Shown here: positions 11,048 to 32,196 of the stretch, in pieces
Layout: every line of letters begins with the position of its first letter
How positions within the stretch are numbered: the stretch's first letter is position 1
Assembly: GCA_027491155.1 (NCBI GenBank)
Contig: JAIXWR010000033.1
Span: forward strand, 124,001 to 188,000
DNA length: 64,000 nucleotides
Origin: Verrucomicrobiaceae bacterium
GTDB lineage: Bacteria > Verrucomicrobiota > Verrucomicrobiia > Verrucomicrobiales > Akkermansiaceae
Direction of reading: 5' to 3'
The notes under the pieces: model-generated
Database searches by the model: none
Seen by the model: the letters and a program-made list of their open reading frames with translations, nothing else
What the model was told of the DNA's origin: nothing
Translations under genes and position numbers: made by a program

Positions 11048-11119
11048 ATGAGTTTCACCGATCTATTTGCGACCGCCCGGCGCAGGTGCCATCAATTCAA
11101 TTTCCCCCAAAGTCTATGA
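11048..11119 (+). CDS. 23-codon leader ORF overlapping the helicase start
   Basis: A short frame beginning MSFTDLFATARRR and ending in CTATGA, where its stop codon overlaps the ATG of the helicase at 11116 (ATGA arrangement). It may couple translation to the helicase, or be the left-over start of a deleted gene. No similarity is recognised. Its main value is that it supports 11116 rather than 11086 as the helicase start. Confidence 0.3.
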   Translation: MSFTDLFATARRRCHQFNFPQSL

Positions 11120-15225: not shown

Positions 15226-15825
15226 TTGTCCACCCAACCGATTTACACAGCCACCCTGACCACCGGCTCTTTGAAGCCGCGGGAGAGCCGTGTCGTCGCC
15301 GGACTGCTGCTGGAGGGCGTGTCGGAGGCGGAGTGGAAGAGTGCCATCCAGGAGAAGAACATTCTCCAGACCCGCGCACCCGCATCCTCCCTGACCCTTG
15401 CAAGGCTCCTCCGGGCTCGTTTGGAGTGCTTCGACGGGCCGCTGTGGCTCATGGTGAGGGATGGCGACAAGCTGCTCGCCACCCAAGCGCTTCTGGCTTG
15501 TTCGGTGAAGCAAAGCGCCCTGTTGAGGGACTTCATGAACCTCGCCCTCCGCGACGAATACCGCATGTTCCGGCCGTCGCTGGCCCCCGCGGTCTGGTCG
15601 TCTTTCCTCGACGGCTGCCGCAGCAGGGATCCTGCCATGCCGGAGTGGTCGGAGAGCACCCGGGACCGCCTCCGCTCAACCGTCTATCAGATCCTGGCCC
15701 AAGCGGGCTACCTCGCCGACACCTCTTCGCGGACGCTCAAGCCCGTGACCATCATTCCCCAGCTCACCGCCTACCTTCAGGAGAAAGGAGAGCACCAACT
15801 CCTGCGTTGCCTGCAACTGCCATGA
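15226..15825 (+). CDS. brxA: BREX protein BrxA (DUF1819)
   Basis: A 199-residue DUF1819 protein, the first gene of BREX type 1 operons. BrxA is a small DNA-binding protein needed for BREX function in characterised systems. The family-like opening YTATLTTGSLKPRESRVVA is visible right after the start. The reading frame extends to an ATG at 15088, but that adds about 46 residues absent from the family. A TTG at 15226 (TTG at 15211 is the other option) gives the normal length of about 200. Its stop overlaps the brxB start (ATGA). Confidence 0.85.
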   Translation: MSTQPIYTATLTTGSLKPRESRVVAGLLLEGVSEAEWKSAIQEKNILQTRAPASSLTLARLLRARLECFDGPLWLMVRDGDKLLATQALLACSVKQSALLRDFMNLALRDEYRMFRPSLAPAVWSSFLDGCRSRDPAMPEWSESTRDRLRSTVYQILAQAGYLADTSSRTLKPVTIIPQLTAYLQEKGEHQLLRCLQLP

Positions 15826-16394
15826 CCGAGAAGCTCCAAGAGCGCCTGAACCAGATCGTGCCGAGGATCACCTCGGACGGCTTCCTGCGTACCACCGGCA
15901 TCGGGAACGAGGTCGCCTTCTACATCTTCGACTACCCCGCCGAGGAAGAGCTGAAGGTCCGCGATTACCTCACCTTTCTCACCGGGCACCTGGCCAAGAA
16001 GCACCCGGACATCCGAGTGAAGCACGTGAACTTGTTCGAGGTGGTCATCCAGTCGCTGGAGGCCCGGGGCTTCCTTGAGAAATCCTTCGAGAAGCAGAAG
16101 AAGGACGGAGATAAGGCTTTGCGCGGCACGCTGGAGCGCCAGTTCGAGGGCCCGAAGCTTGCCGCGGCCTTTGCCGAGCGGGTGAACCCCGACGAGACCG
16201 ACCTCATCCTCGTGTCCGGGATCGGCAGCGCCTACCCAATCGTCCGCACCCACAATCTGCTCTCCGCTCTCCAACCCAAGTTGGGCACAACCCCTTTGGT
16301 GGTGTTCTACCCCGGAGTCTACGACGGCAAGTATGTCCGCCTCTTCGGGAAGCTCCAAGGACCCTACTACCGCGCTTTCAAGCTCGTTCCCTGA
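15822..16394 (+). CDS. brxB: BREX protein BrxB (DUF1788)
   Basis: A 190-residue DUF1788 protein. It shows the family's characteristic order: an N-terminal GNEVAFYIFDYPAEEELKVR, a central helix-rich stretch, then the buried strands LILVSGIGSAYPIVRTHNLL and PLVVFYPGVYDG. BrxB is a conserved structural component required for BREX defence, of unknown biochemical activity. It overlaps brxA by 4 bp and sits 2 bp from brxC, so translation is coupled. The longer frame reaching back to 15333 is a shadow across brxA. Confidence 0.92.
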   Translation: MTEKLQERLNQIVPRITSDGFLRTTGIGNEVAFYIFDYPAEEELKVRDYLTFLTGHLAKKHPDIRVKHVNLFEVVIQSLEARGFLEKSFEKQKKDGDKALRGTLERQFEGPKLAAAFAERVNPDETDLILVSGIGSAYPIVRTHNLLSALQPKLGTTPLVVFYPGVYDGKYVRLFGKLQGPYYRAFKLVP

Positions 16395-16396
16395 CC

Positions 16397-19300
16397 ATGA
16401 TGACCATCCGCGAATTCTTTGAACGTGACATCACCCGCCCGATCAACGGCGTCGTCAAAGCCGACCAGCAGGACGACGGGTCGATCTGGCACGAGCTGGA
16501 CGAGTTCGTCGTCACCCACGAATTGGACAAGCATCTCCACAAGTTCATCAGCAACTACCTGGCGGTCGCCGACAACCTGAACAACCCCGAATACGCCGGG
16601 AAGATCGGGGTCTGGATCTCGGGATTCTTTGGCTCCGGTAAATCCCACTTCCTCAAGGTCCTCTCCTACGTGATGGGAAACCGGTCCCTTCAGGTGGACG
16701 GGCAGGTGAAGCGCACGGCGGAATTCTTCGAGTCGAAGATCAAGGATCCGATGTTCTACGCCGACATCAAGCGGGCGGTCGCGTTCCCCACCGATGTCAT
16801 CCTCTTCAACATCGAGACGAAATCCGATCACGCCAACAGCCGCGACGCCATCCTCTCGGTCTTGCTACGGATGCTCAACGAGCTGCAAGGCTACTCGGGG
16901 CACCCGCCTCACATCGCCCACATGGAGCGTCACCTTGACGAGCGCGGAAAGCTCACGGCGTTCCATGAGGCCTTCCTGGAGGCCACCGGGAAGACCTGGC
17001 ACTCGGAGAGGGACGCCTTCGACTTCTACGGCGACGAGATGATCGCGGCGCTGTCCAAGGCCCTTGGCCAGTCCATCGAGGCCTCGACCAAGTGGTACAA
17101 TACCGCGGAGTCGAACTTCTCCCTCACCGTCGAGAATTTCTGCCTCTGGGTGAAGGAATACCTCGACCGGAAGGGACCGGATCACCGCCTGCTGTTCTTC
17201 GCGGACGAGGTCGGGGCGTTCATCGGCAAGGACTCCCAGCTGATGCTGAACCTCCAGACCATCACCGAGACCCTCGGTACCACCTGCGGCGGCCGGGCCT
17301 GGATCATCATCACCTCCCAAGAGGACATCGACACCGTCATCGGCGAGATGAGCCGGACCCGGGTGAACGACTTCTCCCGGATCACCGCCCGCTTCACCAC
17401 CCGCATGTCGCTCTCCAGCGCGAACGTCGACGAGGTCCTCCGCGTCCGGCTGCTGGCGAAGCGCGAGGTCGGCACGAAGTTCCTGGAGAATCTCTACGGG
17501 GAGAAGGGCGACATCATCCGCAACCAGCTCACCTTCGGCGCGACCAAGATGAGCATGAAGTCCTACGCGGACGCCGCCGACTTCGCCGCCACCTACCCGT
17601 TCATCCCTTACCAGTTCCAGCTGCTCCAGAAGATCTTCGAGGCCATCCGCAAGGCCGGCGCCACCGGCATGCACCTGGCACGCGGGGAGCGCTCCCTGCT
17701 CGATGCCTTCCAGTCCGCTGCCACCCAGATCAACGACTGCGAGCCCGGCGTCCTCGTCCCGCTCTACCGCTTCTACCCGTCGATCGAGAATTTCCTCGAT
17801 ACCGCCGTCAAGCTGACCATCGAGCAGGCGGCCACCAACCACGCGCTGGAGGATTACGACGTCCGCATCCTCGAAGTCCTCTTCCTGATCCGCTACGTGG
17901 ACGAGGTGAAGGGTAACATCGACAACCTGATCGCCCTTTGCATGGAGGAGATCGATGGTAACCGCGCAAATCTCCGCCGGAAGATCGAAGCCAGCCTTTT
18001 GCGCTTGGAGAACCAGAATCTTGTCAACCGCAACGGCGACGACTTCTCCTTCTTCACCAACGAGGAGCAGGACGTGAAGCGCGAGATCAAGGCCCAGGAA
18101 ATCGATTCCGGGGCCGAGGCCAAGCTACTCGGCGACCTGATCTTCGACGAGGTCCTCAAAGAGCAGCGCAAGCACCGCTACTCGCCCAACGGCAAGGATT
18201 TCGTGTTCAACCGCATCTGCGACGGTCACCCCTACGGGAACCGGGCCGAGAATGCCATCGTCGTCCATGCCATCACCCCGCTCAACGACGACTACCACCT
18301 CTACGATGCCCCCCGCTGCACCCTCGATAGTACGACCGATGGCGGTCAGCTCATCCTGAAGATCGCCGACCATGAGTCGCTTGCCCGCGAGGCCCGGCTC
18401 TACCTCCAGACCGAGCGCTACATCGGCCGGAAGAGCGACGGGACCCAGCAGTCCTCCACCCAGAGGATCTTGCGCGAGTTCGCGGAGGACAACCGCACAC
18501 GCCGGGAGCGCCTTGTCACCACCATGACGGAGCTGGTGGGGCAGGCCGAGTTCTTTGCAGGGGGGCAACAGTTCAGGCCCAAGTCCTCCTCGCCGGTGAC
18601 CGCGATCGGAGAGGCGCTGGAGTATCTGATTCAGAACACCTTCTCCAAGATGGGCTACCTCAAGCACCTCGTCTCGGACCCCCTGAAAGAGATCCAGGCC
18701 GTCTTACGGACCAATGACATCGGCCAGCAAACGCTCACCCTCCAGACCGAGGAAGGAAATCCCAAGGCCATCCAGGAGCTGCGGACCTACCTTCAGCTCT
18801 GCGCCCAGACCAGCAAGCAAGTTGTGCTTCACGAGCTGGTGGAGGAGCGCTTCTCCAACCGTCCCTATGGCTGGCCTTCCTACGAGACCATCCTGCTGGT
18901 CGCCCGCCTGCTCGTGATCGGGGAGGTCCACTTGATCCGCGCCGGCACACGCGTCCCGCTGGACCGGGCCTACGACGAGCTGACCTCCACCGCGAAGTGG
19001 CGGCAGATCACAGTGCTCCAGCGCAAGATCACCGACCCGGGCGAACTACAGAAAGCCAGGAAGCTCGGGCAGGACCTGTTCGGCCCCATGGGACCGGACA
19101 ACGAGGAGCAGCTCCACGCCCACCTCCATTCCCAGCTCAAGACCTGGAGCGACGCCCTGCTGCAGTTCAAGCCGCTCGCCGAGACCGGCAACTACCCCGG
19201 CGGGCCGGTGATCGAGTCCGGGCTGCCGATGCTCGCCAGGCTGCTGGCCGAGACCGACCCCTTCAAGTTCCTGCAAAGCTTCCTCGCCCGGAAGGACGAC

Positions 19301-19987
19301 CTCCTCGACCTGTCGGACGGCTACCAGGACGTCAGCAACTTCTTCACGAAGCAGCGGCCCCTGTGGGAGGAGCTGCGCGCCGGCGCGGAGCGCTTCCGCC
19401 TGAACGAAATGGAGCTGAAGCGGGATCCGGAGGCCGCTCCGGCTCTTCAGCGAGTCGACCAGATTCTCCAGTCGGCCAGCCCCTACAAGATCCTCAGCGA
19501 GGCCCGGGGGCTGCTGGACAAGCTGACTGAGGTGAACTCGGCTCTCGTGTCCGCCCGGCGAGCTCAGGCCCTGGAGGCCGTGGAGAAGCAGCGTGGGCTC
19601 GCGCTCGCCGAGATCGAGTCCGCCGGCAGCCCCGATCAGCTCGCCCAGGATTTCGAGACCCGCTATCAGGGGCTGGCGGAGTCCTGCGCCAAGCAGGTGA
19701 GCGTCGCCCACCTGGATCAGGCCGCCTACGAGGCGACCCGGCTCTTCGAGACCGCCCTCACCAGCGTGGAGCGGGCGTCCGCCCCGCCGCCGTCGCCGTC
19801 TGCGACACCCGTTAAGTATCCCAAGCCCAAGCTCCCGGGGCCCAAGCCACGCCACGTGGTCGAGGTATCGTCTCTCCTGAGGAAGCCCTTCCTTGAGAAT
19901 GCCGAGGAGGTGGAGGACTTCCTGACCCGGCTCCGCACGGAGCTGACCAACGCCATCGCCCGGCAAGAGCGCATCCAGATCAAGTAA
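16397..19987 (+). CDS. brxC: BREX ATPase BrxC
   Basis: A 1196-residue P-loop ATPase, the large BREX ATP-binding subunit that assembles with BrxB, PglX and PglZ. The Walker A motif GFFGSGKS is at residues 76-83. A LLFFADEVGAFIG segment around residue 265 fits Walker B. The C-terminal half is helical, and the last 70 residues form a proline-rich linker (PPPSPSATPVKYPKPK) followed by a conserved tail ending IARQERIQIK. That tail is duplicated in diverged form at 25156-25361. The size and motif order match BREX type 1 BrxC. Confidence 0.95.
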   Translation: MMTIREFFERDITRPINGVVKADQQDDGSIWHELDEFVVTHELDKHLHKFISNYLAVADNLNNPEYAGKIGVWISGFFGSGKSHFLKVLSYVMGNRSLQVDGQVKRTAEFFESKIKDPMFYADIKRAVAFPTDVILFNIETKSDHANSRDAILSVLLRMLNELQGYSGHPPHIAHMERHLDERGKLTAFHEAFLEATGKTWHSERDAFDFYGDEMIAALSKALGQSIEASTKWYNTAESNFSLTVENFCLWVKEYLDRKGPDHRLLFFADEVGAFIGKDSQLMLNLQTITETLGTTCGGRAWIIITSQEDIDTVIGEMSRTRVNDFSRITARFTTRMSLSSANVDEVLRVRLLAKREVGTKFLENLYGEKGDIIRNQLTFGATKMSMKSYADAADFAATYPFIPYQFQLLQKIFEAIRKAGATGMHLARGERSLLDAFQSAATQINDCEPGVLVPLYRFYPSIENFLDTAVKLTIEQAATNHALEDYDVRILEVLFLIRYVDEVKGNIDNLIALCMEEIDGNRANLRRKIEASLLRLENQNLVNRNGDDFSFFTNEEQDVKREIKAQEIDSGAEAKLLGDLIFDEVLKEQRKHRYSPNGKDFVFNRICDGHPYGNRAENAIVVHAITPLNDDYHLYDAPRCTLDSTTDGGQLILKIADHESLAREARLYLQTERYIGRKSDGTQQSSTQRILREFAEDNRTRRERLVTTMTELVGQAEFFAGGQQFRPKSSSPVTAIGEALEYLIQNTFSKMGYLKHLVSDPLKEIQAVLRTNDIGQQTLTLQTEEGNPKAIQELRTYLQLCAQTSKQVVLHELVEERFSNRPYGWPSYETILLVARLLVIGEVHLIRAGTRVPLDRAYDELTSTAKWRQITVLQRKITDPGELQKARKLGQDLFGPMGPDNEEQLHAHLHSQLKTWSDALLQFKPLAETGNYPGGPVIESGLPMLARLLAETDPFKFLQSFLARKDDLLDLSDGYQDVSNFFTKQRPLWEELRAGAERFRLNEMELKRDPEAAPALQRVDQILQSASPYKILSEARGLLDKLTEVNSALVSARRAQALEAVEKQRGLALAEIESAGSPDQLAQDFETRYQGLAESCAKQVSVAHLDQAAYEATRLFETALTSVERASAPPPSPSATPVKYPKPKLPGPKPRHVVEVSSLLRKPFLENAEEVEDFLTRLRTELTNAIARQERIQIK

Positions 19988-20033
19988 CCCTGCCACCGCC
20001 TGGCTCCCCACCCCACACCCCGCACGCCACCCC

Positions 20034-21059
20034 ATGAGCAAGGACCTGACCACCTCGGAGATCGACCGCCAGAACATCCTGAATAACCGCTACGCCCTCG
20101 CCGAAATCGAGAAAGCCACTGGTATTCAAGGAATCCCGTTCGAGGGGAAGACCGTGGTGCTCAAGGAGCAGGTCGCCGCGTTTTTCGAGGTGACCCCCCG
20201 GACAGTGGACAATTACCTCGAGAAATTCAGCGAAGAATTGGGCCGGAACGGCTATGCGGTTTTGAAGGGCAAGCGACTGAAAGCCATGAAGTTGGCGATT
20301 GCGGCTCTTGATGTTCACGAAACAGAATTCGTTAACATCTCCAAAATACCTCAGCTCGGCGTCTTCGACTTCCGGGCCTTCCTGAACCTGGCGATGCTCA
20401 TGACCGAGAGTCACCGGGCCGCCTTGGTGCGCCAGATGATCCTCGATGTCGTGATCGACACGATCAACGCCCGGACCGGCGGGGGCACCAAGTACATCAA
20501 CCAGCGGGACGAGGACTTCATCCACTCCGCCTTCATCGAGGACAACTACCGTCGGCAGTTCACCGACGCGCTCCGGGACTGCGTGGCCATGGGCAATTTC
20601 AAATACGCGGTCTACACCGACAAGATCTACGTCAGCATCTTCCGCGAGAAGGCGAAGGAATACCGGAAGATCCTTCGACTGGAGGACCAGGAGGAGGTCC
20701 GCGACACCTTCTACTCGGAGATTCTCGACCTCATCGCCTCCTACGAATGCGGCTTTGCCGAGATGCTCCAGGCCCGGTCCAAGGAACGGGGCCGGATGCT
20801 CACCGCGTTCGAGTCCGACGCCCTGTTCAAGCAGTTCGAGGCCCAGCCGCTCTTGAGGCCGCTGATTGAAAAGGCCCGCAACAAGATGGCTAGCCGCGAC
20901 CTCGCGTTCAGGGATGCCCTCCACCTCCAGCTCAAGGACTACGTCACCCCGCTGGCCCCGAGCGAGTTCGAGCGCTTCATCGGGGAGAAGAGCAAGGAGC
21001 TAGCCGAGCGCCTGGAGGAGGCCAAGGACGTGATGAAACGCCTCAAGGAGCGCGAGTGA
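20034..21059 (+). CDS. HTH DNA-binding protein (RhuM-like) paired with Fic gene
   Basis: A 341-residue protein with an N-terminal helix-turn-helix region (VVLKEQVAAFFEVTPRTVDNYLEKF, split across residues about 41-65). This resembles the KilA-N/RhuM-type DNA-binding proteins often encoded beside Fic/Doc toxins. A NISKIPQLGVFDFRAFLNLAM segment and a long charged helical C-terminus follow. Its stop overlaps the Fic gene start (TGATG), so the two are translated together and this could be the antitoxin or operon regulator. It is the first cargo gene after brxC, 46 bp downstream. Confidence 0.65.
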   Translation: MSKDLTTSEIDRQNILNNRYALAEIEKATGIQGIPFEGKTVVLKEQVAAFFEVTPRTVDNYLEKFSEELGRNGYAVLKGKRLKAMKLAIAALDVHETEFVNISKIPQLGVFDFRAFLNLAMLMTESHRAALVRQMILDVVIDTINARTGGGTKYINQRDEDFIHSAFIEDNYRRQFTDALRDCVAMGNFKYAVYTDKIYVSIFREKAKEYRKILRLEDQEEVRDTFYSEILDLIASYECGFAEMLQARSKERGRMLTAFESDALFKQFEAQPLLRPLIEKARNKMASRDLAFRDALHLQLKDYVTPLAPSEFERFIGEKSKELAERLEEAKDVMKRLKERE

Positions 21060-21526
21060 TGACCTACCGCTACATCACCATCCAGAACGCCATCGATACC
21101 CACCAGCTCACGGTGGAGAAGAGCGGCGGCGGCACGCTAGGGGTTCTGGAGATCGACAAGCTGGAGAGCGTCCTGGAGCACATCCAGAACGACGATTACT
21201 ACCCCACCTTCGAGGACAAGCTGACCCATCTCTTCCACAGCGCCTGCAAGTTTCACTGCTTCCAGGACGGCAACAAGCGCATCGCCATCAACCTGTGCGC
21301 CCAGATGCTCCTCATCAACGGCTACCTCCGTGCCGGCCACTTTATCCGGGAGGCGGAGAATATCAGCTACCACGTGGCGGCGGGGAACATCTCCAAGGAC
21401 CTGCTCGGGCGCTGGATGGTCGCAGTCCTCAACGAGGACGAAGACGACGAATCCCTGAAGCTGGAAATCTACCACGCCATCTCCAACGGCATCCCAGCGG
21501 GTGAGAACGGCTTCGCTGAATCCTGA
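21059..21526 (+). CDS. Fic/Doc-family protein
   Basis: A 155-residue Fic-domain protein of the short Doc type. The catalytic motif H-C-F-Q-D-G-N-K-R (HxFxDGNKR) is intact, with histidine 66 and the phosphate-binding Asn/Lys. Fic proteins transfer AMP or another phosphate-containing group to a target protein; Doc phosphorylates EF-Tu. An alternative GTG start at 21056 adds one residue. It is co-translated with the upstream HTH protein. No inhibitory (S/T)xxxE(G/N) helix is obvious inside it, so inhibition would have to come from the partner. Its position inside BREX suggests a back-up effector role. Confidence 0.85.
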   Translation: MTYRYITIQNAIDTHQLTVEKSGGGTLGVLEIDKLESVLEHIQNDDYYPTFEDKLTHLFHSACKFHCFQDGNKRIAINLCAQMLLINGYLRAGHFIREAENISYHVAAGNISKDLLGRWMVAVLNEDEDDESLKLEIYHAISNGIPAGENGFAES

Positions 21527-21555
21527 CCCATGGCACCATCTCTGCATTCTCGCCC

Positions 21556-23028
21556 ATGACCCTCCCCACACCGCAGAACCAGGAAATCGTTGATGTCGAT
21601 GTCCGGAGTTTCGAGGAGCTGTTCGACCCATCCCTCATGCCATTGGGGGTGGATACCTACCAGCGTGGCTTTGTCTGGAGTGACGAAAAAATCCAGCAGT
21701 TGATTGGCGATCTTGCGGATTATCAGGAGGAATCGGGTCCGAAGCCCCCGTATTACATGGGCACGCTGTTGTTCCATCAGAACTCCGTGAAGCAGCGCCG
21801 GTTTGTCATCGACGGCCAGCAGCGTCTCACCGCCCTGTCCATTCTCCATCAGATTTTGAGTGGCAATCTGCCGGACCAATTCGCCCTGACCTATTCTCCC
21901 AAATCCGCCCGACGGATCCTCGCAGCGTCGAAGATCTTCAAGGAAACCCTGCGGAGACCGACTGCTTCTGTTTTTGGTGAGATCGTGTTCACCACCATCC
22001 AGGTAGAAAGGGTCGATCTGGCGTTCACGTTCTTCGACACGCAGAACAACCGTGGAGTGCCGCTTCATGCCACGGACCTGCTCAAGGCCTATCACCTCCG
22101 TGCGGTGGATGGCCATGGCAAGAACCACCGGGAGGCATTGCAATCCCTCTGCGCCCGCCGCTGGGAGGGCATTCAGCAGGGGAAGCCGGTCATGTCCCAC
22201 GATCAGGAGTTCGCCCCGAGCCTTTTCTCCAAGTTCCTCTGGCGCTCGCGATTCTGGACCGGCACAAGAGTGGTTTATGGCGGGCATGATGCCCTGATGG
22301 ATGAGTTCCAGAAGCGGGCGTGGTCCCGGCAGGGTGACAGTGACACCATCCCGCTCTACCGCTCGCGTCACAACCGGCTCGGCACCGCGCTCACGCTCAA
22401 TCCTGCGGGACACGGTGAGATCCACACCAACCGAATTTCCCTCAGCCCCAAGGCCGAGGATCTGCCCTTCGCCATCCGGCAGCCCATCCACGAGGGAATC
22501 GGCTTCTTCCTCTATGCCGACAAGTATGCAGCTCTACTGCGCCGCCTCGTTTCCGATGCCACCGACTCCTCCGAGACACTTGCGTTCCGTGAGGTTTACT
22601 CGAAATTGATGATGGCGAACTCGCACTTCCTCCGGGAGATTTTCCTCCTCGCCTCCCTGATGTATGCGGACCAGTTCGATGATGAGAAGCTTTCGGAATT
22701 CTCACACTGGATGGAGCATGCGCTGGGTGCCATCCGCCTGGAAAAACAACAGGTCCGCTACGAGGCCGCACAGAACTTTTTTAAGCATGACGCGCTGAAC
22801 CTCTTGGATGTTATCGCCCACGGTTACCGGCCCGAAGAAGCAATCCTCCACCTTCAGACCCATCATCTCAGCAGGGACACTTATGCGAAGGAGTCGGTCG
22901 AGTCCGGCAAAGGGGTCCAAGGCACCTACAAGAAGGCCGTGCTCGATTACTTCGGTCGTGACCCGGACGAGTCGCTGGCAGGCAAGCCGGGCTGGATTGC
23001 CGGGAAAATGAAAGGAGCGAAGCCATGA
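21556..23028 (+). CDS. DUF262 protein, first of a pair
   Basis: A 490-residue protein with an N-terminal DUF262 (GmrS-like, ParB-fold) domain. The YQRGFVW motif lies at 35-41 and DGQQR at 86-90, with TQNNRGVPL near residue 168. Such domains bind nucleotides and drive nuclease activity in GmrSD-type modification-dependent restriction. The C-terminal half has no clear HNH (DUF1524) signature, so the nuclease function may be supplied by the partner. It overlaps the next gene by 4 bp. Base composition is less GC-rich than BREX core genes, which fits separate acquisition. Confidence 0.85.
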   Translation: MTLPTPQNQEIVDVDVRSFEELFDPSLMPLGVDTYQRGFVWSDEKIQQLIGDLADYQEESGPKPPYYMGTLLFHQNSVKQRRFVIDGQQRLTALSILHQILSGNLPDQFALTYSPKSARRILAASKIFKETLRRPTASVFGEIVFTTIQVERVDLAFTFFDTQNNRGVPLHATDLLKAYHLRAVDGHGKNHREALQSLCARRWEGIQQGKPVMSHDQEFAPSLFSKFLWRSRFWTGTRVVYGGHDALMDEFQKRAWSRQGDSDTIPLYRSRHNRLGTALTLNPAGHGEIHTNRISLSPKAEDLPFAIRQPIHEGIGFFLYADKYAALLRRLVSDATDSSETLAFREVYSKLMMANSHFLREIFLLASLMYADQFDDEKLSEFSHWMEHALGAIRLEKQQVRYEAAQNFFKHDALNLLDVIAHGYRPEEAILHLQTHHLSRDTYAKESVESGKGVQGTYKKAVLDYFGRDPDESLAGKPGWIAGKMKGAKP

Positions 23029-25031
23029 AAATTTCCTCAAAACTCACAAGCCTTGCGGAGATCGTAGAGAAATGTCCCGTCTGGAATTTCAACATTCCGA
23101 TCTATCAGCGGCTTTATGTCTGGGGAGAGGATCAGGTGCTCACGCTCCTGAACGACCTGACAAATGCCTACGAGCGGGACGCGGACCTTTTCTTCCTCGG
23201 TGGCACCTTGCTGGTGGAGCAGGAAGGTCGATCAGGGCGGCACTTCGATCTGATCGACGGACAGCAGCGGTTCACGACCCTTTGGCTTCTTTGTCAGGTT
23301 TGGAGGAATTCCCTCAAGCCCTTCCTCACCGCTAAATCCGGAGATCGCAATGAGCCGCGTCTCCGCTTTGCTATCCGGCCTGAAGTGAACCGCTTTTTGG
23401 AGGATCTCGCATTTGGCCCCGGCGGAAGGTCGGATGCCGGGGAGGAGGCCACGCTGCGCATGCGCACAGCGATGGATCTGATGGACTCGTTGTTTGAAAG
23501 ACGTCCGCTACCCCGGGGTATCGCCAGCAAGGAAAAGCATCTTGCCGGCTTGGCGGACTACGTGTTCACCAAGGTCAAGTTCGTCATCACCTCCGTACCA
23601 CTTGAAACCGACCTCAACAAGTTGTTCGAGGTCATCAACAACCGGGGCGTGCAGTTGCAGCACCACGAGATCCTAAAGGCCCGCATGCTCGACGCCCTGC
23701 CGGAGCGCGAGCGAGGTCCCTACGCGATACTCTGGGAGGCGTGCGCGGACATGGAGAACTTCGTCGAGCGGAGCCTCAGCGGTATTTCTGGAATCCCCGC
23801 CCATGAGATCACCGGATTCTACGAGGCCTGCCTGCTGGCGAACGCTGGAACCATACGCGCCGCGGTGGATGCTCGTCTTCAGGATGGTGAGAATGTCGAT
23901 GAGTTGGGCCTCGATAGAATTCTAAGCCCCGATTATGAGGCCACGGACTCCGGGGACGAGAACACAGCGGAGGAAGAGCCTCCCATGTGGGTGCGGAGCA
24001 TTTTCGGCTTTCCCTTGTTTCTCCAACACACGCTTCGGATCTGGCTGTTCAAGGAAGGCCGCGCCGACCTGCCCCGCCTCCTTGACCGGGATTTACTGTC
24101 GTTGTTCGAGACCCATTTCCTTCACGGTGAATCCAACCGTCCGGAGAAGGTCAGGTCGTTCATCGACTTGCTCTGGAACCTGCGGGTTCTCTTCGACCAG
24201 CACATCATCAAATGGGTGGATCAGGGTGAGGAGGAAATCCACCTGATTAGCCGCATCAGCGTCAGCGAAAACAAGAGGACCGGAAGGCGCAACATGAGCC
24301 GCTCCACCGAGACGGATTCCCATCGCGGCCTTTCGCTGTTGCAGAGCATGCTCTACCACTCGCAGGAGATCACCACCCAGTATTGGCTCACCCCGTTGTT
24401 GCTTTTCATCCACGATTACCCGGGCAAGGAGGCGGAGGGGGTTACCGCCGCGTTTTTCGATTACCTGAGACATCTCGATGACCACCTGCTGGGATCCAAC
24501 GAAGAAGCCTCTCTTGCGGTGCGCACACGGCACTTCATGGAGGATCCCTGGCGGCGCTGTGAATTGATCTATCGCGAGGAACTGGAAAAGCCGAGCGGCG
24601 TGAAGTTCGCCCACTATTGGTTCTACAAATTGGAGTTCGTATTGTGGCACTCGGAGGTGAAGAAGTCGGACCTGTGGACGAGATTCCGCCTGACGGCGAA
24701 AAGCTCGGTCGAACACATTTCCCCGCAAACAGCCACCGAGCGGGACGACAATCGGGTGAAGGACACGCTTCATCACTTTGGCAACCTCGCCCTCGTCTCA
24801 CGCAGTCTGAATTCGGAGTATGGTAACCTGCCCTTCAACGAGAAGCGGCAGCGCTTCCAGAACAACAACAAGGTCCGGGTGGACTCCCTGAAGATGGATC
24901 TCATCTATGAGAATGAGCGATGGAGCGACGACCTGGCTACGGCGCACCAGGCGAAGATGATTGAATGCCTCACGGAATACTACGAACGACCGGCGCGCTC
25001 TTCCACTCTCCAGACGAAGGCCAAACCCTAG
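23025..25031 (+). CDS. DUF262-DUF1524 (GmrSD-like) nuclease, second of a pair
   Basis: A 668-residue protein combining an N-terminal DUF262 domain (YQRLYVW at 27-33, DGQQR at 78-82, VINNRGVQL around 204) with a C-terminal DUF1524/HNH region. There VEHISPQ, with the His near residue 564, is followed by FGNLALVSRSLNSEYGN. This is the GmrSD-like architecture of nucleases that in known cases cut modified phage DNA. The 4-bp overlap with the upstream DUF262 gene implies a two-protein complex. In combination with BREX it could cover phages that evade methylation-based recognition. Confidence 0.85.
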   Translation: MKISSKLTSLAEIVEKCPVWNFNIPIYQRLYVWGEDQVLTLLNDLTNAYERDADLFFLGGTLLVEQEGRSGRHFDLIDGQQRFTTLWLLCQVWRNSLKPFLTAKSGDRNEPRLRFAIRPEVNRFLEDLAFGPGGRSDAGEEATLRMRTAMDLMDSLFERRPLPRGIASKEKHLAGLADYVFTKVKFVITSVPLETDLNKLFEVINNRGVQLQHHEILKARMLDALPERERGPYAILWEACADMENFVERSLSGISGIPAHEITGFYEACLLANAGTIRAAVDARLQDGENVDELGLDRILSPDYEATDSGDENTAEEEPPMWVRSIFGFPLFLQHTLRIWLFKEGRADLPRLLDRDLLSLFETHFLHGESNRPEKVRSFIDLLWNLRVLFDQHIIKWVDQGEEEIHLISRISVSENKRTGRRNMSRSTETDSHRGLSLLQSMLYHSQEITTQYWLTPLLLFIHDYPGKEAEGVTAAFFDYLRHLDDHLLGSNEEASLAVRTRHFMEDPWRRCELIYREELEKPSGVKFAHYWFYKLEFVLWHSEVKKSDLWTRFRLTAKSSVEHISPQTATERDDNRVKDTLHHFGNLALVSRSLNSEYGNLPFNEKRQRFQNNNKVRVDSLKMDLIYENERWSDDLATAHQAKMIECLTEYYERPARSSTLQTKAKP

Positions 25032-25126
25032 GCGAAGCTCTCGAATTCCAGATCGACTCCGCCACCTCATCTCCACTTTCGATAGCTCACTGATCACTGC
25101 TCACTCGGCACCTCTTTCTCCTCTTC

Positions 25127-25361
25127 ATGAACCTCACAAAGCTCGAGACCTTCGCCCCCGCCGCCGTCGCCGTCTGCGACACCCGTCAAGAATCCCAAGC
25201 CCAATCTCCCGGGGCCCAAGCCGCGCCATGTGGTCGAGGTCTCCTCTCTCCTGAGGAAGCCCTTCCTTGAGAAGGCCGAGGAAGTGAAAGAATTCCTGAC
25301 CCGGCTTCGCAAGGAGCTGTCCAACGCCATCGCCAGACAAGAACGCATTCAGATCAAGTAA
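25127..25361 (+). pseudogene. Chimeric scar: pglX 5' end fused to brxC 3' end
   Basis: From 25121 to 25165 the sequence matches the beginning of pglX (27542-27586) with only two differences, including the ATG and the first 13 codons. From 25156 to 25361 it matches the last 206 bp of brxC (19782-19987) without gaps, ending at the same TAA, but with about seven amino-acid differences. The two parents share CCCCGCCGCC at the joint. The brxC part is out of frame with the pglX start, so no fusion protein is made. It is a recombination footprint separating two cargo cassettes. Confidence 0.9.
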
Positions 25362-25379
25362 ACACGGAGCGCGCCCACC

Positions 25380-26210
25380 ATGAAATTCTTCACCATCATC
25401 ACCCCGCTGCTGTTAGTCGGGGTGTTGGCCATGTTGCTTGTCCAAGGGCAGCAAATCAGGACCTTGCGAACGGATGTCGTGACCTTGAGGGACGAGGTCG
25501 CTTGGTCACAAGCCGGCCCCGAAGCTCCTTCCGCAGCCCCTGATGACGACCTGCATGAGGAGAGTTACAACAGCCCAAAGGACATCGCGAAAAGAATAGC
25601 AAGTGTCGCAGGTGGGGATGTTCAGGGCTTTGCTATGGCCGTGGCCGAGGTGGATGGCTGGATCTTCCATCCCGATCAGGAGGAGGCGGCGAAGGACATT
25701 ATCGGGAAACTTGTTTCTGACCTGCGCGGCATAATCAGATTGGCGATCAGCGCTGAGACCGACAAGGCGATCAAAGCTGCGAGTGGGACCGAAGGGGCGA
25801 AGCACCTGACACGCGCGGGGGAGCTGTTTGGACTTTATCCCCAGCCTTCATCGGAAGCCGAGAGGACCGAGGCCGAAGCCCTGTCGGCGACGATACTGGG
25901 GACTGCCAGACGAGTGGAGGATTTGCGCCGGCTTCGCTACAACGATTGGGCGGCCCACCAGATCGAGCAGGGCTTGAGCGGCTTCCATCAGAACAAGAAG
26001 ACGTTTGGCGATGACTCGGAAGCGTTGATCCGGTCCTGTGTGTCGACCCTCGGACCAGTGGAAACCTCCAGTCTGGAACCGGCGGTCCTCGCTCTCTATC
26101 AGGAGGCGCTTTCGATGACCACGGAAGCTCTCTCGGAACCAGGCCGGGTGAAGCTAGCCAAGGAACTTAGCTCCACGTCGATTGATCGAAAATCCCCAGC
26201 CGATTTCTAA
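25380..26210 (+). CDS. Membrane-anchored protein of unknown function (BREX cargo)
   Basis: A 276-residue protein not recognised. It starts with one hydrophobic helix (about residues 5-22), followed by a short coiled coil (QIRTLRTDVVTLRDEV), an acidic linker and a helical soluble domain of about 200 residues. Topology prediction would place that domain outside the cytoplasm if the helix is a signal anchor. There is no catalytic motif that I can see. It overlaps the next gene by 1 bp (TAATG), so the two form one cassette. It follows the recombination scar by 18 bp. Confidence 0.65.
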   Translation: MKFFTIITPLLLVGVLAMLLVQGQQIRTLRTDVVTLRDEVAWSQAGPEAPSAAPDDDLHEESYNSPKDIAKRIASVAGGDVQGFAMAVAEVDGWIFHPDQEEAAKDIIGKLVSDLRGIIRLAISAETDKAIKAASGTEGAKHLTRAGELFGLYPQPSSEAERTEAEALSATILGTARRVEDLRRLRYNDWAAHQIEQGLSGFHQNKKTFGDDSEALIRSCVSTLGPVETSSLEPAVLALYQEALSMTTEALSEPGRVKLAKELSSTSIDRKSPADF

Positions 26211-27514
26211 TGAGTGCATCACTTTGGCCCACCGTTTTGGTGGCGGTTGTCATGGCCTCCCCTTGGGCATTGGGTAGGACTTACATTCCACTTTCGGAGG
26301 CCGCCTCGGCGGGCGCGACCACCCGGTCGACCTTTCTTCCCGTGAAGTCCGAAGCCCGTCCTCTGCTGCCAGGCTTACGGCCTTCCGGCGTCGAGTTGCT
26401 GGAAGATGGACTGCGGCGAAAACAACCCCGCACGATCGGAACATCGACCAAGGAGGCCCACGCTTCAATCGTCCGGAACTGGCTGCGCAGTCCCGCCAAG
26501 CGTGCCCACATCAAGGGCTTGTACGCCGAAGCCCTCTACCTGCGGAGTAACCCGGACTGGGGCTACGTCCGCTCGCCGATCGCGAAGCAGCACGATCTCT
26601 ACACTTGGGTCAGGGGCCGTCCGACGCCCTTCACGGCGCAGGTCAAGACGCACGGCAAAGCGGACCCCGGCGTCTATGCCAGGGACATGGTCAAGGATGA
26701 CCTGTCGAATCTATTCCTTGTTCCTGATGACCACGTGGCGGGGCTCAAGGATTACTGGCGCAAGAAGATCCACGACCTCGATCAACGTGGCCTGGACGAA
26801 GAGAAGCGAGAGGCCACCCGGCAGATGGCCCGGGTCCGCGGACTTGGTTTCACCAGTGGGGCACTGGACAGCGATTTCAGCAAGAGCGCCCGGTATGTGC
26901 TTCGGGAGCGACAGGCGGCCTACGTCTCCATGGGTGCCACCCTGGCAATGGCGTTGGGCCCGGATCTGTGGAGCCTGGCCAGTACGGGTGCGCTCCCTCC
27001 TCACACTCTCTCACGCTGGGCACGATCGGGAGCGGTTGCAGGGGTAGGTAGCGCCGCGACCTATTCGCTTAAGCATGTGGCAAAGGGCTCGTGGCAGGGT
27101 GTTTGGAAAGGCAACATGCTGATTGGCTCGGCCCTGGTGCTGGCGGATACCTACTTCGTCGTTCGGGATTCCGGGGGAACGAGACAGGCGTTCTCCAATC
27201 CGGAATTTTACTACCAGCTGTCGGGAAGAATCAGCGGCACCGCTCTTGCCATTGGCGTTGGCGCGCCGGTGGCGGTTTGGACCACGGCGGTGGCGGTTGA
27301 GACGGGGCCCTTCGCCCCCGCGATTGGCGGAGCTGCGGGACTGCTGGCCGGCGGCGTCGCCTACATGGCGGGCTCGGTCGGAGGGGAGTCCGCGACCCGC
27401 TGGATCTGTCAGTCGATCAAACCCGAACTTCTGGTGGAGGCGGCCCAGCAAATGGCGGCGGGCGTCCGGCAAGAGCTTGCCGCTCGGATCGCTGATATTC
27501 AGAAGCCCCTCTAG
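26210..27514 (+). CDS. Multi-helix membrane protein with possible nuclease-like segment (BREX cargo)
   Basis: A 434-residue protein not recognised. It has an N-terminal signal-like helix (residues 5-22). A soluble region follows (about 60-210), where HDLYTWVRGRPTPFTAQVKT could be read as a D...QxK nuclease-like strand pair; this is speculative. The C-terminal half is rich in Gly and Ala and has four or five hydrophobic segments, including AIGGAAGLLAGGVAYMAGS, a glycine-zipper pattern seen in pore-forming and toxin-delivery proteins. It is co-translated with the upstream gene and lies 33 bp before pglX. Confidence 0.65.
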   Translation: MSASLWPTVLVAVVMASPWALGRTYIPLSEAASAGATTRSTFLPVKSEARPLLPGLRPSGVELLEDGLRRKQPRTIGTSTKEAHASIVRNWLRSPAKRAHIKGLYAEALYLRSNPDWGYVRSPIAKQHDLYTWVRGRPTPFTAQVKTHGKADPGVYARDMVKDDLSNLFLVPDDHVAGLKDYWRKKIHDLDQRGLDEEKREATRQMARVRGLGFTSGALDSDFSKSARYVLRERQAAYVSMGATLAMALGPDLWSLASTGALPPHTLSRWARSGAVAGVGSAATYSLKHVAKGSWQGVWKGNMLIGSALVLADTYFVVRDSGGTRQAFSNPEFYYQLSGRISGTALAIGVGAPVAVWTTAVAVETGPFAPAIGGAAGLLAGGVAYMAGSVGGESATRWICQSIKPELLVEAAQQMAAGVRQELAARIADIQKPL

Positions 27515-27547
27515 AACCCTTCTCTTTTCGCCCCCAACGCAATCTTC

Positions 27548-30500
27548 ATGAACCTCACCAAGCTCAAGACCTTCGCCCCCGCCGCCCGGAATGCCTTCAT
27601 CGACGCGGTCGCGCGCCGGGCCGGTGCCCTCGGGATCCAGGCCGGGCGGGTGGAGGCGGTCACCGAGTCGGGGGACGTCGCCCTCATTGGCGGCCAGCCC
27701 TTCCCGCGGTCCATCGTACCACTGCGGAAGCAGCTCCTCGACCTCGTCCAGCGGGACGGCTTCGGCCCGACGATGGAGTCCATGGCCTACACCTGGTTCA
27801 ACCGCCTCGTCGCCCTGCGCTTCATGGAGCTGCACGATGGCTACCTCGACCACGGCTACCGGGTCCTCAGCCACCCGGAGGGCTCCAGCCTGCCGGAGAT
27901 CCTCCAGCACGCGGAGCACGTCAGCCTGGCCGGCCTCGACCGCGACGAGGTCATCCGGCTCAAGCTGGACGGCAACCGCGACGAGGAACTGTACCGGATG
28001 CTCCTGCTGGCCCAGTGCCACGAGCTGGGCCGCATCCTCCCGTCCATCTTCAGCCGGCTGGACGACGCCACCATCCTGCTGCTGCCGGACAATCTGCTGC
28101 ATTCGGACTCCGTCGTCCGCCAGCTCGTCGGCGGCAGCGAGGAGGGGGACTGGCAGGAGGTCGAGGTTCTCGGCTGGCTCTACCAGTTCTACATCTCGGA
28201 GAAGAAGGACAAGGTCATGGCCCGCAAGAGCGCCGTGCCCACCGAGGACATCCCCGCCGTCACCCAGCTCTTCACCCCGCACTGGATCGTCCGCTACCTG
28301 GTCGAAAACTCCCTCGGCCGGCTCTGGCTGCTGAATCGCCCGGGCTCCCGGCTGCGCGAGAACAATCAGATGCCCTATTACATTGAGGGCGAGCCGGAAA
28401 CCGACTTCCTCAAGATCAACAAGCCTGAGGACATCAAGCTCGTCGACCCCGCGGTGGGGTCCGCGCACTTGCTCACCTACGCCTTCGACTTGCTCGTCCT
28501 GATCTACGAGGAGGAAGGCTACGCGCCCGCCGAGATCCCCGGCCTGATTCTGCGGCACAACCTGCACGGGCTGGATCTCTGCCCCCGCGCCGCCCAACTC
28601 GCCGAGCTGGCCCTCGTCTTCAAGGCCCGGGAAAAATCCCGTCGCTTCTTCCAGGAGGGACAATTTGTCCGCCCGAACATCATCGAACTGCGCAACGTGA
28701 GCTTCGCTGCAGGCGAGCTGCACGACTACATCCAAGCCCTCGGGCTGGACGACCTTTTCAATCGTCCCGTGCTCCAGCTGCTCCACCAGTTCGAGGAGGC
28801 GAAGAACTTCGGCTCACTGATCCAACCGTGCCTCGACGAACGCGCCATCACCGATCTTCGCCGTGCCATCGAGGTGAAGGACCTCGGTGGCCAGCTCTTC
28901 CTGCGTGAGACGCACCTCAAAGTCCTGCGTGTGCTCAACCAAGCCGAGGCGCTCACCCAGCGGTATCACGTCGTCGTTGCCAATCCGCCGTATATGGGGG
29001 ATGGGCAGCAAAATTCTACGGTAAAGGTATTTCTTCGTGAGCATTACCTAGACTCCAAAGCAGACCTTTTTGCCTGTTTCATCGAACGCAGCATCGGGCT
29101 TTCATTATCGAATGGATATGCTGGCCTCGTGACGAGACACGGTTGGATGTTTATCGCTTCCTTCGAGAAGCTACGAACACGGTTGCTGAGGGAAAAGCAG
29201 CTAGTATCCCTTGCTCATTTAGGGGCAAGAGGGTTCGACAGCATCTCGGGGGAGGTGGTACAGGTCGCGGCGTTTGTCTTTCAGAACAAGACAAGTCCAG
29301 ATGCTGTCGCTCAATTCAGAGACCTGAGGAAAGGTCGAGATGAAGCCGAGAAAGGGGTGCTATTTCTAAACCCCAATGTCCGACATATCGCCTGTGCGTC
29401 TCAGTTCCTTAGAATCCCTGGAGCTCCCCTATGCTATTGGATTTCGATAGCTGCGGTTGAAGCATTCGCTCGACATCCCCGCCTTGGAGACCTAGCTACA
29501 ATTCGTGCAGGACTGCAAACTGGGGACAACAATAGATTTCTGCGTCTGTGGCATGAGGTTGGTCAAAGCTCTCTCGGTTTTGGCTATCAGAGTCGCGCTG
29601 ACGCGAAACTGACCACAGCGAAGTGGTTTCCGATCAATAAAGGGGGCTCGTTTCGGAAGTGGTGTGGAAACTCTGAATACGTGATCAACTGGTTCAATGA
29701 CGGTGAGGAGTTAAAGCAGCAAAAGGCCGAAGATTTGGCTAGTGGCAAGATCACGGCCAACAACTCGAAGTGCTGGAATCAGGACCATTACTTTAAGCGC
29801 GGACTTTCGTGGTCAGCCGTCAGCTCAGAGGCCGTTTCAGTTCGGCTCAATGGCTACGGATACCTTTTCGACACCACAGGCCAGACCGCATTTCCTGAAG
29901 GAAACGCTAGGCATGAGACTTTGTTGGCTCTGCTGAACTCCGGAGTTGCCGAGTATTTTCTCAATGCACTTTCACCCACCATGCACTTCAACTCGGGCAA
30001 TTTCGCTGACTTGCCAGTCCCGATTTCTGTGCAAACAGATGCTCTGGTAACTGAACGGGCAAATAAATGCGTCGGCCTCGCCCGGGCCGACTGGGACAAC
30101 TTCGAGACTTCGTGGGACTTTCGCGACCAGCCGTTGCTGCGTCCGGGGCTGAAGGGCGCGACGCTGGAGGCGTGCTGGCGAAACTGGGAGGCACAGAGCA
30201 CCGCCACCATCCGCCGGATGCAGGAGCTGGAGACGGAGAACAACCGGCTCTTCATCGCCGCCTACGGCCTCGACGGAGCGTTGCAGTCCGAAGTGCCCGA
30301 GGAGCAGATCTCCCTCTTCTGCAATCCCGCCAGCCGCTACAAGAAGAAGGCGAAAAAGAAGAAGAAAACAGCCGAAGACGATGACTCTGACGACTCCGAA
30401 GCAGAAGTCGAGGCAGTGTCCGCCTATTCGCCGGAGGAGCGTTCCAAGTTCTTCAGGGCCGACACGATTCGGGAGTTCCTCTCCTACGCCATCGGCTGCA

Positions 30501-31213
30501 TGATGGGCCGCTACAGCCCCGACCACCCCGGCCTGATCCTCGCCAACGCCGGCGACAGCGCCGCGGACTTTCGCCTGAAGCTGACCGCAGCCGGGCTGCG
30601 GATGAACGAGGTGACCTTCTTGCCGGACGAGGACGGCATCCTCCCGTTGCTGGATGGCGAATGGTTCGAGGACGACATCGTCCTCCGCACGCGGGAGTTC
30701 CTCCGCGCGACCTTCGGTGCGGCCTCCGTGGACGAAAACGTCCGCTTCATCGAGGCGGCACTGGGGAGCGACCTTCGGGGCTATTACCTGAGCGACTTCT
30801 ACAAGGACCACCTCCAAACCTACAAGAACCGGCCGATCTACTGGCTCTTCTCCAGCGGCAAGCAGAAGGCCTTCCAGTGCCTCGTTTACCTCCACCGCTA
30901 CACCCCTGGCACCCTGGCCCGGATGCGCACGGAGTATGTCATCCCGCTCCAAGGCAAGCTGGCCGCCCGGATTCCCCGGCTGGAGGAAGAGATCGGCAAG
31001 GCGACCACCAGCGCTAGCCGCAAGAAGCTCCAGACCGATCTGGATAAGACCAAGAAGCAGATCGTGGAGCTGGTGGCCTACGACGAGCAGCTCCGCTCCT
31101 ACTCCGACCAAGCCATCGCCCTCGACCTGGACGACGGCGTGAAGGTCAATTACGCCAAGTTCGGCACCCTCCTCGCCGAGGCCAAGAAGGTCTGTGGCAC
31201 CAAGGACGACTGA
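27548..31213 (+). CDS. pglX: BREX adenine-specific DNA methyltransferase PglX
   Basis: A 1221-residue N6-adenine methylase that modifies one strand of an asymmetric site and is required for BREX self/non-self discrimination. The SAM-binding motif DPAVGSAHLL lies near residue 299. The catalytic motif N-P-P-Y is at 479-482. The C-terminal third is helical, with a Lys-rich segment (KKKAKKKKKT) near residue 935. The DNA from about 28985 to 30065 (residues about 480-840) is near 50% GC against about 65-70% on both sides, suggesting replacement of the target-recognition part. The first 13 codons are duplicated at 25127. Confidence 0.95.
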   Translation: MNLTKLKTFAPAARNAFIDAVARRAGALGIQAGRVEAVTESGDVALIGGQPFPRSIVPLRKQLLDLVQRDGFGPTMESMAYTWFNRLVALRFMELHDGYLDHGYRVLSHPEGSSLPEILQHAEHVSLAGLDRDEVIRLKLDGNRDEELYRMLLLAQCHELGRILPSIFSRLDDATILLLPDNLLHSDSVVRQLVGGSEEGDWQEVEVLGWLYQFYISEKKDKVMARKSAVPTEDIPAVTQLFTPHWIVRYLVENSLGRLWLLNRPGSRLRENNQMPYYIEGEPETDFLKINKPEDIKLVDPAVGSAHLLTYAFDLLVLIYEEEGYAPAEIPGLILRHNLHGLDLCPRAAQLAELALVFKAREKSRRFFQEGQFVRPNIIELRNVSFAAGELHDYIQALGLDDLFNRPVLQLLHQFEEAKNFGSLIQPCLDERAITDLRRAIEVKDLGGQLFLRETHLKVLRVLNQAEALTQRYHVVVANPPYMGDGQQNSTVKVFLREHYLDSKADLFACFIERSIGLSLSNGYAGLVTRHGWMFIASFEKLRTRLLREKQLVSLAHLGARGFDSISGEVVQVAAFVFQNKTSPDAVAQFRDLRKGRDEAEKGVLFLNPNVRHIACASQFLRIPGAPLCYWISIAAVEAFARHPRLGDLATIRAGLQTGDNNRFLRLWHEVGQSSLGFGYQSRADAKLTTAKWFPINKGGSFRKWCGNSEYVINWFNDGEELKQQKAEDLASGKITANNSKCWNQDHYFKRGLSWSAVSSEAVSVRLNGYGYLFDTTGQTAFPEGNARHETLLALLNSGVAEYFLNALSPTMHFNSGNFADLPVPISVQTDALVTERANKCVGLARADWDNFETSWDFRDQPLLRPGLKGATLEACWRNWEAQSTATIRRMQELETENNRLFIAAYGLDGALQSEVPEEQISLFCNPASRYKKKAKKKKKTAEDDDSDDSEAEVEAVSAYSPEERSKFFRADTIREFLSYAIGCMMGRYSPDHPGLILANAGDSAADFRLKLTAAGLRMNEVTFLPDEDGILPLLDGEWFEDDIVLRTREFLRATFGAASVDENVRFIEAALGSDLRGYYLSDFYKDHLQTYKNRPIYWLFSSGKQKAFQCLVYLHRYTPGTLARMRTEYVIPLQGKLAARIPRLEEEIGKATTSASRKKLQTDLDKTKKQIVELVAYDEQLRSYSDQAIALDLDDGVKVNYAKFGTLLAEAKKVCGTKDD

Positions 31214-31215: not shown

Positions 31216-32196
31216 ATGCACGCACCAAGCACATTCGCGACGATACTCCCCGGCAAGGGCCGCTGGCGAGCCCGGGACGTCAGCTACTGGTCGGGACCGT
31301 GGGACCGGCTGTCTGCCCTCGTTCCCTTCTTCAGCCTGGAGCCCTTCCAGATGGCCGTGGATGCTCCCGGGAACCCCTACATGAAGGCCGTGGTCAGGAA
31401 GCCGGTCAACGTCACCGAGCACCCGATTCCGGTGGGTACGGTGTCCAACACCTACCAGCTGGTGCAGCACCATGAGGTCGTCAGCCGCTGCTTCGACGGC
31501 CTCCGCGCCGCAGGAGTTTGCCCCGATCATCTTGAGTGCGAGGTAGGCCTCACCGCCTTGGGCGAGTGGATCAATTTCCGTGCCTACTTCCCGGACACCT
31601 ACAACCACGTGCCCAAAGACGGGAACCCGATCCGTCTGCGCCTGGAGTGCTTCAACTCGGTCGACGGTTCAAGCAGGTTGATCCTGTTGCTGGGCTGGTA
31701 TCGGCTGGTCTGCTCCAACGGCCTGATCATCGGTGAGACGAAGGCCGAGCTGAAGGACATCCACGACCAGAGGCTCAATATCGACGTCATCCCCGGGATG
31801 ATCGCCGCCGGCCTGAAGAAGGTTCAAGGCGACATCGCGCGGATGGGTGCCTGGTCGTCCCAAGCGGTGGATCGGACTCACCTCGAAGGATGGGTGAATG
31901 GTCCTCTTGCGAAGCAGTGGGGGAAGAAGGCGGCTTGCCGGGTGTATCACATCTGCCAGACGGGCCACGACGTCGAGATCCTCGATCCCTTCGCGAAGGG
32001 CGAAGCCACCGAGAAGCCGGTGAGCCTGAAGGACGCGGTGCCAGGGTCCGCCACACCCGCCGAGAATCTCTATGACGTCTGCCAAGTACTCTCCTGGGTC
32101 GCCACCAAGCGCAGCGATACCGAGCAGCGGCTGGCGTGGCAGGTCGAGATCCCGAGTCTGGTTTTCCTTTTGTCCCAAGCTGCGAAAGCGGCTTGA
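31216..32196 (+). CDS. DUF932 protein embedded in BREX
   Basis: A 326-residue DUF932 family protein. The hallmark LVCSNGLIIG lies near residue 175, preceded by the strand-rich region VGTVSNTYQLVQHHEV. DUF932 proteins are common on phages and plasmids, and no general function is established. The start is 2 bp after the pglX stop and the gene ends 12 bp before pglZ, so it is expressed as part of the operon. It is not one of the six core BREX type 1 genes. It may be an accessory or a captured phage or plasmid gene; the latter would fit an anti-restriction origin. Confidence 0.8.
   Translation: MHAPSTFATILPGKGRWRARDVSYWSGPWDRLSALVPFFSLEPFQMAVDAPGNPYMKAVVRKPVNVTEHPIPVGTVSNTYQLVQHHEVVSRCFDGLRAAGVCPDHLECEVGLTALGEWINFRAYFPDTYNHVPKDGNPIRLRLECFNSVDGSSRLILLLGWYRLVCSNGLIIGETKAELKDIHDQRLNIDVIPGMIAAGLKKVQGDIARMGAWSSQAVDRTHLEGWVNGPLAKQWGKKAACRVYHICQTGHDVEILDPFAKGEATEKPVSLKDAVPGSATPAENLYDVCQVLSWVATKRSDTEQRLAWQVEIPSLVFLLSQAAKAA

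Follow-up and report, generated by a model that had tools for sequence, protein, structure and literature searches.

A pglX-brxC remnant between two cargos of a verrucomicrobial BREX locus, probably a recombination scar left by cargo stacking

To our knowledge, there is little base-pair documentation of how defence islands come to hold several systems when no mobile-element machinery is involved. One general process, known as homology-facilitated illegitimate recombination, combines homologous exchange at one end of the incoming DNA with an illegitimate join at the opposite end, made where the sequences have a short word in common. In the portion of the article available, Kirchberger 2017 (PMC5361080) proposed a mechanism akin to this process for the T6SS of Vibrio cholerae. 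For BREX, the accessible text of PMC8565348 places brxU, a GmrSD-family enzyme, in the brxC-pglX interval of pEFER, and that of PMC11341690 counts ~9,000 genomes in which pglZ and pglX occur jointly, ~7,000 of which carry genes between BREX components. Here we describe a BREX locus in which the brxC-pglX interval holds two different cargos, separated by a fused remnant of the two flanking core genes.

The window, by which we mean the whole stretch of 64,000 nucleotides that was analysed, belongs to a genome of the family Akkermansiaceae (phylum Verrucomicrobiota) and contains a type I BREX locus in the order brxB, brxC, cargo 1, scar, cargo 2, pglX, a DUF932 gene, pglZ and brxL (Table 1). No separate brxA was identified at this locus with PADLOC or Pfam. 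The brxB reading frame has ~160 additional N-terminal residues ahead of the BrxB domain, possibly a fusion, and directly upstream of it lies a PDC-S68 defence candidate of 1301 aa that shows RecD-like similarity (11086-14991). The cargo 2 genes gave no matches in PADLOC or NCBIfam; in Pfam, gene 2 had none and gene 1 had none above the cutoff. Gene 2 (26210-27514) contains a D...QVK stretch that may resemble Mrr-type nuclease motifs. Low-complexity intergenic words (TTTCAGC-like or CTGATCACT-like) lie just 5′ of several pglX or pglX′ starts, in the window and in loci L038 and L055. Three relatives (L038, L039 and L048) have an in-frame extra ~90-155 codons in PglX, all near one point that corresponds to residues 279-288 of the window PglX, which is without them. 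In three further loci, the starts of tandem pglX genes share ~70-89% nucleotide identity (L135 2829-9751, L138 4356-11525 and L139 4268-11624), possibly reflecting dual specificity or a merodiploid intermediate.

Table 1. Features of the BREX locus and of the scar, in window coordinates
Feature	Position	Strand	Basis
brxB	15333..16394	+	PADLOC BrxB 1.3e-61; Pfam BrxB domain at residues 164-352
brxC, intact; last 206 bp (19782-19987) repeated in the scar	16397..19987	+	PADLOC BrxC; alignment
Cargo 1 gene 1, PDC-M59A	20034..21059	+	PADLOC 1.1e-106; 80% aa relative in the brxC-pglX gap of L047
Cargo 1 gene 2, PDC-M59B, Fic/Doc family	21056..21526	+	PADLOC 3.7e-35; Pfam Fic; L047 relative 83% aa
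Cargo 1 gene 3, GmrSD_N + DUF7834	21556..23028	+	Pfam
Cargo 1, second of two GmrSD-type genes	23025..25031	+	Pfam
Scar left half, pglX′: first 13 codons from the ATG at 25127, preceded by 5 bp	25122..25165	+	42/44 against 27543-27586
Scar joint, CCCCGCCGCC, common to both parents	25156..25165	+	Local alignment
Scar right half, brxC′: last 206 bp including the stop codon	25156..25361	+	187/206 against 19782-19987, gapless
Cargo 2 gene 1, N-terminus hydrophobic by eye	25380..26210	+	No family match
Cargo 2 gene 2, hydrophobic stretches by eye	26210..27514	+	No family match
pglX, intact	27548..31213	+	NCBIfam BREX-1 PglX 1335.9 bits, cutoff 500
DUF932 gene, pglX/pglZ interval	31216..32196	+	Pfam
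pglZ	32209..34821	+	PADLOC 6e-293
brxL, ORF overlaps pglZ (start approximate)	34715..36862	+	PADLOC BrxL

The piece at 25122-25361 is composed of two matches to the flanking core genes. By local alignment, the pglX′ half covers 44 bp of the pglX start with two mismatches, beginning 5 bp before the ATG; the initial annotation had given 45 bp with two changes, and apart from that length its description of this half, like its remaining coordinates, stood. It had also described a gapless 206-bp match to the 3′ end of brxC with several amino-acid changes, and the search against the window recovered exactly this (90.8% identity, E 1.5e-79), with the brxC frame open and 7 amino-acid changes in 67 codons. 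Where the two matches overlap lies the 10-bp CCCCGCCGCC, present in both parents, which bears out the shared sequence that had been noticed at the joint. Read from the pglX′ ATG, the frame runs for 47 codons and then stops, so that the two halves of the scar are mutually out of frame. Given that the pglX′ match starts 5 bp before the ATG and that brxC′ ends at the stop codon, both cargos abut the remnants just as they would abut intact genes.

Chance similarity is ruled out for both matches by their alignment scores and by shuffling, since 0 of 300 shuffled versions of the gap sequence reached the scores of the pglX′ and brxC′ remnants. It is not unusual for two gene ends to share a word of at least 10 bases somewhere (68 of 1000 random pairs of window genes), and an identical run of at least 10 bases across a randomly chosen join between two such genes had a frequency of 1.5e-5 (200,000 trials). 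What is notable is the join falling exactly on the shared 10-mer, rather than the mere existence of the 10-mer. An assembly artefact is unlikely, as the joint is probably too short for a k-mer join and another genome (L055) is arranged alike. Among the best 40 of 80 and 2 of 9 candidates in the genome of the window, we found neither a further copy of the scar nor a second BrxC besides brxC and the scar. Our best explanation of the whole treats the piece as a dead recombination scar, and a gene or control element is not the reading that we prefer.

The brxC/pglX junction is an ordinary tolerated cargo site, because it is empty in some relatives and otherwise filled in others. For instance, the junction is empty in L048, a relative with 69% identity whose brxC runs 4 bp into pglX, and several plasmid loci have brxC-pglX gaps below 50 bp. 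In closer relatives, the slot contains a 235-aa ORF (L039) or a 443-aa ORF (L038), and different cargo occupies this junction in L038, L039, L047, L049 and L051. Of cargo 1, the slot of L047 holds just genes 1 and 2, M59A (80% aa) and Fic (83% aa), with a lower identity, 69%, for its BrxC. An M59A relative (63% identical) followed by a Doc-family gene adjoins a type III restriction system in Ilyobacter, and thus the M59A/Fic pair probably moves between defence loci.

To see how often such remnants occur, brxC-pglX gaps of at least 300 bp were scanned by BLAST with the gene ends of each locus itself, accepting E values up to 0.05. For the phylum to which the window belongs, the scan was repeated with a library of all gene ends of its loci. 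The 31 gaps comprise 24 from that phylum, 3 from plasmids (L120, L123 and L124) and 4 from IMG/VR (L133, L138, L139 and L142); L140 gave results identical to those of L139, and the two count as one. Four of the loci counted (L061 and L066-L068) apparently belong to another BREX type, judging by their differing PglX starts. Loci that were truncated or in which the pglX start was unmapped were left out (L054, L059, L060, L062-L065, L069-L074, L091, L108 and L114-L119), as were L121 (no brxC annotated), L128 (a 64-bp gap), L111 and L112 (gaps of 60-299 bp) and gaps below 60 bp. The family and class searches scored a few best candidates per genome, and one class search was confined to E ≤1e-150, so that more loci exist than those scanned. 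Remnants were present in 4 of the 31 gaps, the window counted, and none was seen in the other 27. Short remnants are under-counted by this procedure, as one pglX′ (that of L055, a 17-bp alignment) fell below the threshold and was spotted by eye.

The window's arrangement recurs in this same locus, L055, which reads brxC, a 396-aa ORF (ATPase-like by eye), pglX′::brxC′, a 630-aa ORF and pglX, and its BrxC is 33% identical to that of the window. Its pglX′ measures about 17-21 bp and its brxC′ about 48 bp at 75% identity, and the fusion is in frame over 23 codons. None of 300 shuffles reached the score of this brxC′; for pglX′, the count was 0/300 with a 30-base query but 16/300 with a 53-base query, and therefore that half rests also on its position at the joint. 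On plasmid pSYLA of Synechocystis PCC 6714, the order is brxC, a DUF4351 gene, a brxC′ remnant (35 bp, 94%, E 2.5e-10), vapBC and pglX. This remnant (L120 7238-7275) starts at GGCGATCGCC, which presumably resembles the cyanobacterial HIP1 repeat. In L076, a pglX′ (a 25-bp match at 92%, 0/300 shuffles) lies ~6 bp past the brxC stop and is followed by a cargo gene and pglX. The pglX of L076 itself is in three pieces, split by ORFs that by eye are reverse-transcriptase-like and transposase-like (7618-16519, reverse-complement coordinates).

Since lengths, frames and joints vary between the remnants, those of the window, L055, pSYLA and L076 look like separate events and not like one conserved element, which suggests a recurrent by-product. 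The initial annotation had seen in the scar a mechanism for stacking defence cargo at one BREX position, and with comparable remnants in three other loci, this probably is a general route. Between pglX and pglZ, 18 gaps measuring 60 bp or more yielded no clear remnant. The matches there were short, the longest being 53 bp at 66% identity (L047), and L139 had a single exact repeat of 18 bp close to where its pglZ is estimated to begin. Within cargo 1, neither inspection by eye nor the library scan revealed a pglX′ remnant between the Fic gene and the first GmrSD gene, and the scan found no remnant in pYLMB52a (L124), which has a DUF262 gene at the brxC-pglX site.

We propose, with a probability of about 63% for the reading as a whole, that a second, diverged locus contributed through one-sided homology and a microhomology joint, and that the scar is dead. 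DNA of a second, ~9%-diverged BREX locus with a different cargo would have entered this locus. At one end, a long homologous stretch within a core gene common to both loci would probably have mediated recombination; at the other, pglX codons 10-13 would have been joined to the brxC tail at the 10-bp microhomology. Here the joint is what is seen, and the homologous end and the donor are what we infer. The cargo would have been added, not swapped, which would yield the order brxC - cargo 1 - pglX′::brxC′ - cargo 2 - pglX. Decay of the scar would have begun after the event, as changes at conserved positions suggest, and short remnants may be all that persists in such cases because long direct repeats around a cargo would recombine and delete it.

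The most serious competitor, unlikely in our estimation but deserving a full hearing, is a duplication in place. Slippage or unequal exchange between the two CCCCGCCGCC words would have doubled ~250 bp of an empty junction, after which the cargos would have entered one slot each while the dead copy drifted. The length of the repeat suits slippage, and the empty junctions described above provide a starting point. The direction of the changes also speaks for it. Over the last 44 codons of brxC there are 15 nucleotide differences, of which two relatives polarise 8; 6 of these 8 are assigned to the scar (binomial P 0.29), and the other 7 differences are ambiguous. The two pglX′ changes likewise belong to the scar. 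Such scar-side changes fit decay following duplication in place. Some of them hit conserved positions, namely a change of E to K at a brxC position where 6/6 relatives have E, and K7E in pglX′, where 7/7 relatives have lysine, which is what the decay of a dead remnant gives.

The kind of substitution, on the other hand, weighs against an origin in place. Between the native brxC tail and that of the scar there are 12 synonymous (Sd) and 7 nonsynonymous (Nd) changes, with a dN/dS of 0.18, a value comparable with the 0.10-0.26 of functional relatives over the last 46 codons, in some of which synonymous sites are near saturation. A dead copy simulated in place accumulated 11-12 nonsynonymous changes on average with a native omega of 0.05-0.3, and the probability of 7 or fewer was 0.01-0.05 over that range, or 0.001 if the native copy was unconstrained. 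The tail of L055 alone, put to the same test, gives no grounds for rejecting duplication in place (P 0.06-0.25), but in two loci the remnant ends in another stop codon than the native brxC (TAA against TAG in L055, TGA against TAG in pSYLA). Moreover, duplication in place needs three events, with exactly one slot for each cargo. Because the differences are mainly synonymous, a second, ~9%-diverged BREX locus is modestly favoured over duplication in place, although it is not proven, and we read the mixed signals to mean that the tails had probably diverged before the event and that the scar decayed afterwards. Thus, the earlier proposal that the divergence of the brxC tail favours two loci does not hold for divergence as such, given the decay-like changes at conserved sites, but it finds modest support in the synonymous excess of 12 to 7.

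The searches for a donor bear on the second-locus reading. The initial annotation had proposed looking for a BREX locus with cargo 2 only, and this came back empty: with a few best candidates scored per genome, cargo 2 gene 2 was found in 1 of 384 class genomes, which is the present one. It occurred in none of the 383 others, nor in plasmids or viral contigs (one genome per species). The full scar DNA was found only in this genome among 260 of the family, and the nearest other BrxC among the matches listed is 80% identical in amino acids. In viral contigs, BrxC gave two pattern matches, neither of them a relative, and PglX had candidate matches in 6 phage records. No homologous crossover tract was located, and neither parent had a close strain among the genomes covered, one per species. 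These negative results weaken the case for any particular donor but leave the proposed route itself unaffected.

It had also been claimed that the order of the parts is exactly what tandem duplication gives. This does not apply to the loaded interval, which would have doubled the same cargo, but it does fit an empty junction that was duplicated and then received two cargos. We consider it improbable that a loaded interval was duplicated in tandem as a merodiploid, with a later deletion from the first pglX to the second brxC and the replacement of one cargo. Full-length tandem pglX genes do exist in IMG/VR BREX loci (L135, L138 and L139), and tandem duplication driven by transformation has been published, as the accessible part of PMC3784515 describes; nevertheless, the same cargo would at first have been present twice, yet the cargos differ, and more steps are needed. 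A comparison of 19500-27800 with the window at E 0.01 showed no repeat besides the two halves of the scar, and we rejected this as the simplest route.

Two further readings have very little in their favour. Site-specific integration, in which a mobile element targets the brxC 3′ end and brings a replacement tail, could draw on the duplicated brxC 3′ ends of three loci, but it leaves the pglX′ half unexplained, the duplicated lengths vary (206, about 48 and 35 bp), and we regard it as very improbable. Integrase-driven insertion or an integron cassette was likewise discarded, as no integrase or transposase family was assigned to the six cargo genes by PADLOC, Pfam or NCBIfam. Finally, a conserved functional element such as a leader peptide, attenuator or docking site, for which the recurrence in 4 of 31 gaps and the in-frame fusion of L055 could be cited and whose presence in many unrelated loci the initial annotation had named as evidence against a scar, is rejected as hardly credible, since the remnants that recur differ in length, joint and frame from locus to locus, 27 of the 31 gaps are without one and conserved sites are mutated in the scar.

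If the scar did arise by one-sided homology and a microhomology joint, its present form may have consequences for the cargos. Cargo 1 is now flanked by two brxC tails and cargo 2 by two pglX starts, and a check of the frames indicates that exchange between either pair of repeats would leave the brxC and pglX frames open. Given that repeats flank each cargo and that the core frames stay open, we predict that either cargo could be lost cleanly. As a tentative extension, and a rather speculative one, the junction might act as a two-sided stacking slot, in which illegitimate joining adds cargo and direct repeats let homologous recombination remove either cargo, with BREX unharmed. If true, such a slot would mean integrase-free gain and loss of companion defences in BREX loci of different phyla. 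Remnants of this kind record single events and reveal which core-gene ends take part, and as they occur both in Verrucomicrobiota genomes and on a plasmid of a cyanobacterium, the route can be sought in further genomes and put to the test experimentally.

Among published work, no title or abstract start among the matches listed in a search of the open-access literature, which did not extend to preprints, described BREX remnants of this kind, and the main text of the 2026 BREX survey PMC12839542 contains neither 'recombination' nor 'between brxC'. The survey in PMC11341690 concerns the pglX-pglZ gap and not the brxC-pglX one, and in the available portion of its text recombination remnants are not mentioned. 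In the merodiploids of Streptococcus pneumoniae, tandem duplication occurs by unequal crossing-over during DNA uptake, but according to the accessible part of PMC3784515, those duplications are about 100 to 900 kb long and bordered by repeats, unlike the scar of the window. The brxU of pEFER occupies the same site and is a GmrSD-family type IV enzyme like those of cargo 1, although in the part of PMC8565348 at hand pEFER has a single cargo. The closest published parallel, as far as the available text of PMC5361080 describes it, is found in the orphan immunity arrays of the Vibrio cholerae T6SS, in which modules are added beside a conserved anchor and older parts are shifted aside. In those arrays, old effectors are displaced and immunity genes are pushed downstream, whereas in the window the slot lies between two core genes, so that each of these can leave a remnant, and both cargos stay. 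The process is of a known kind, and what distinguishes it here is the BREX setting, in which the core genes on either side have both left remnants.
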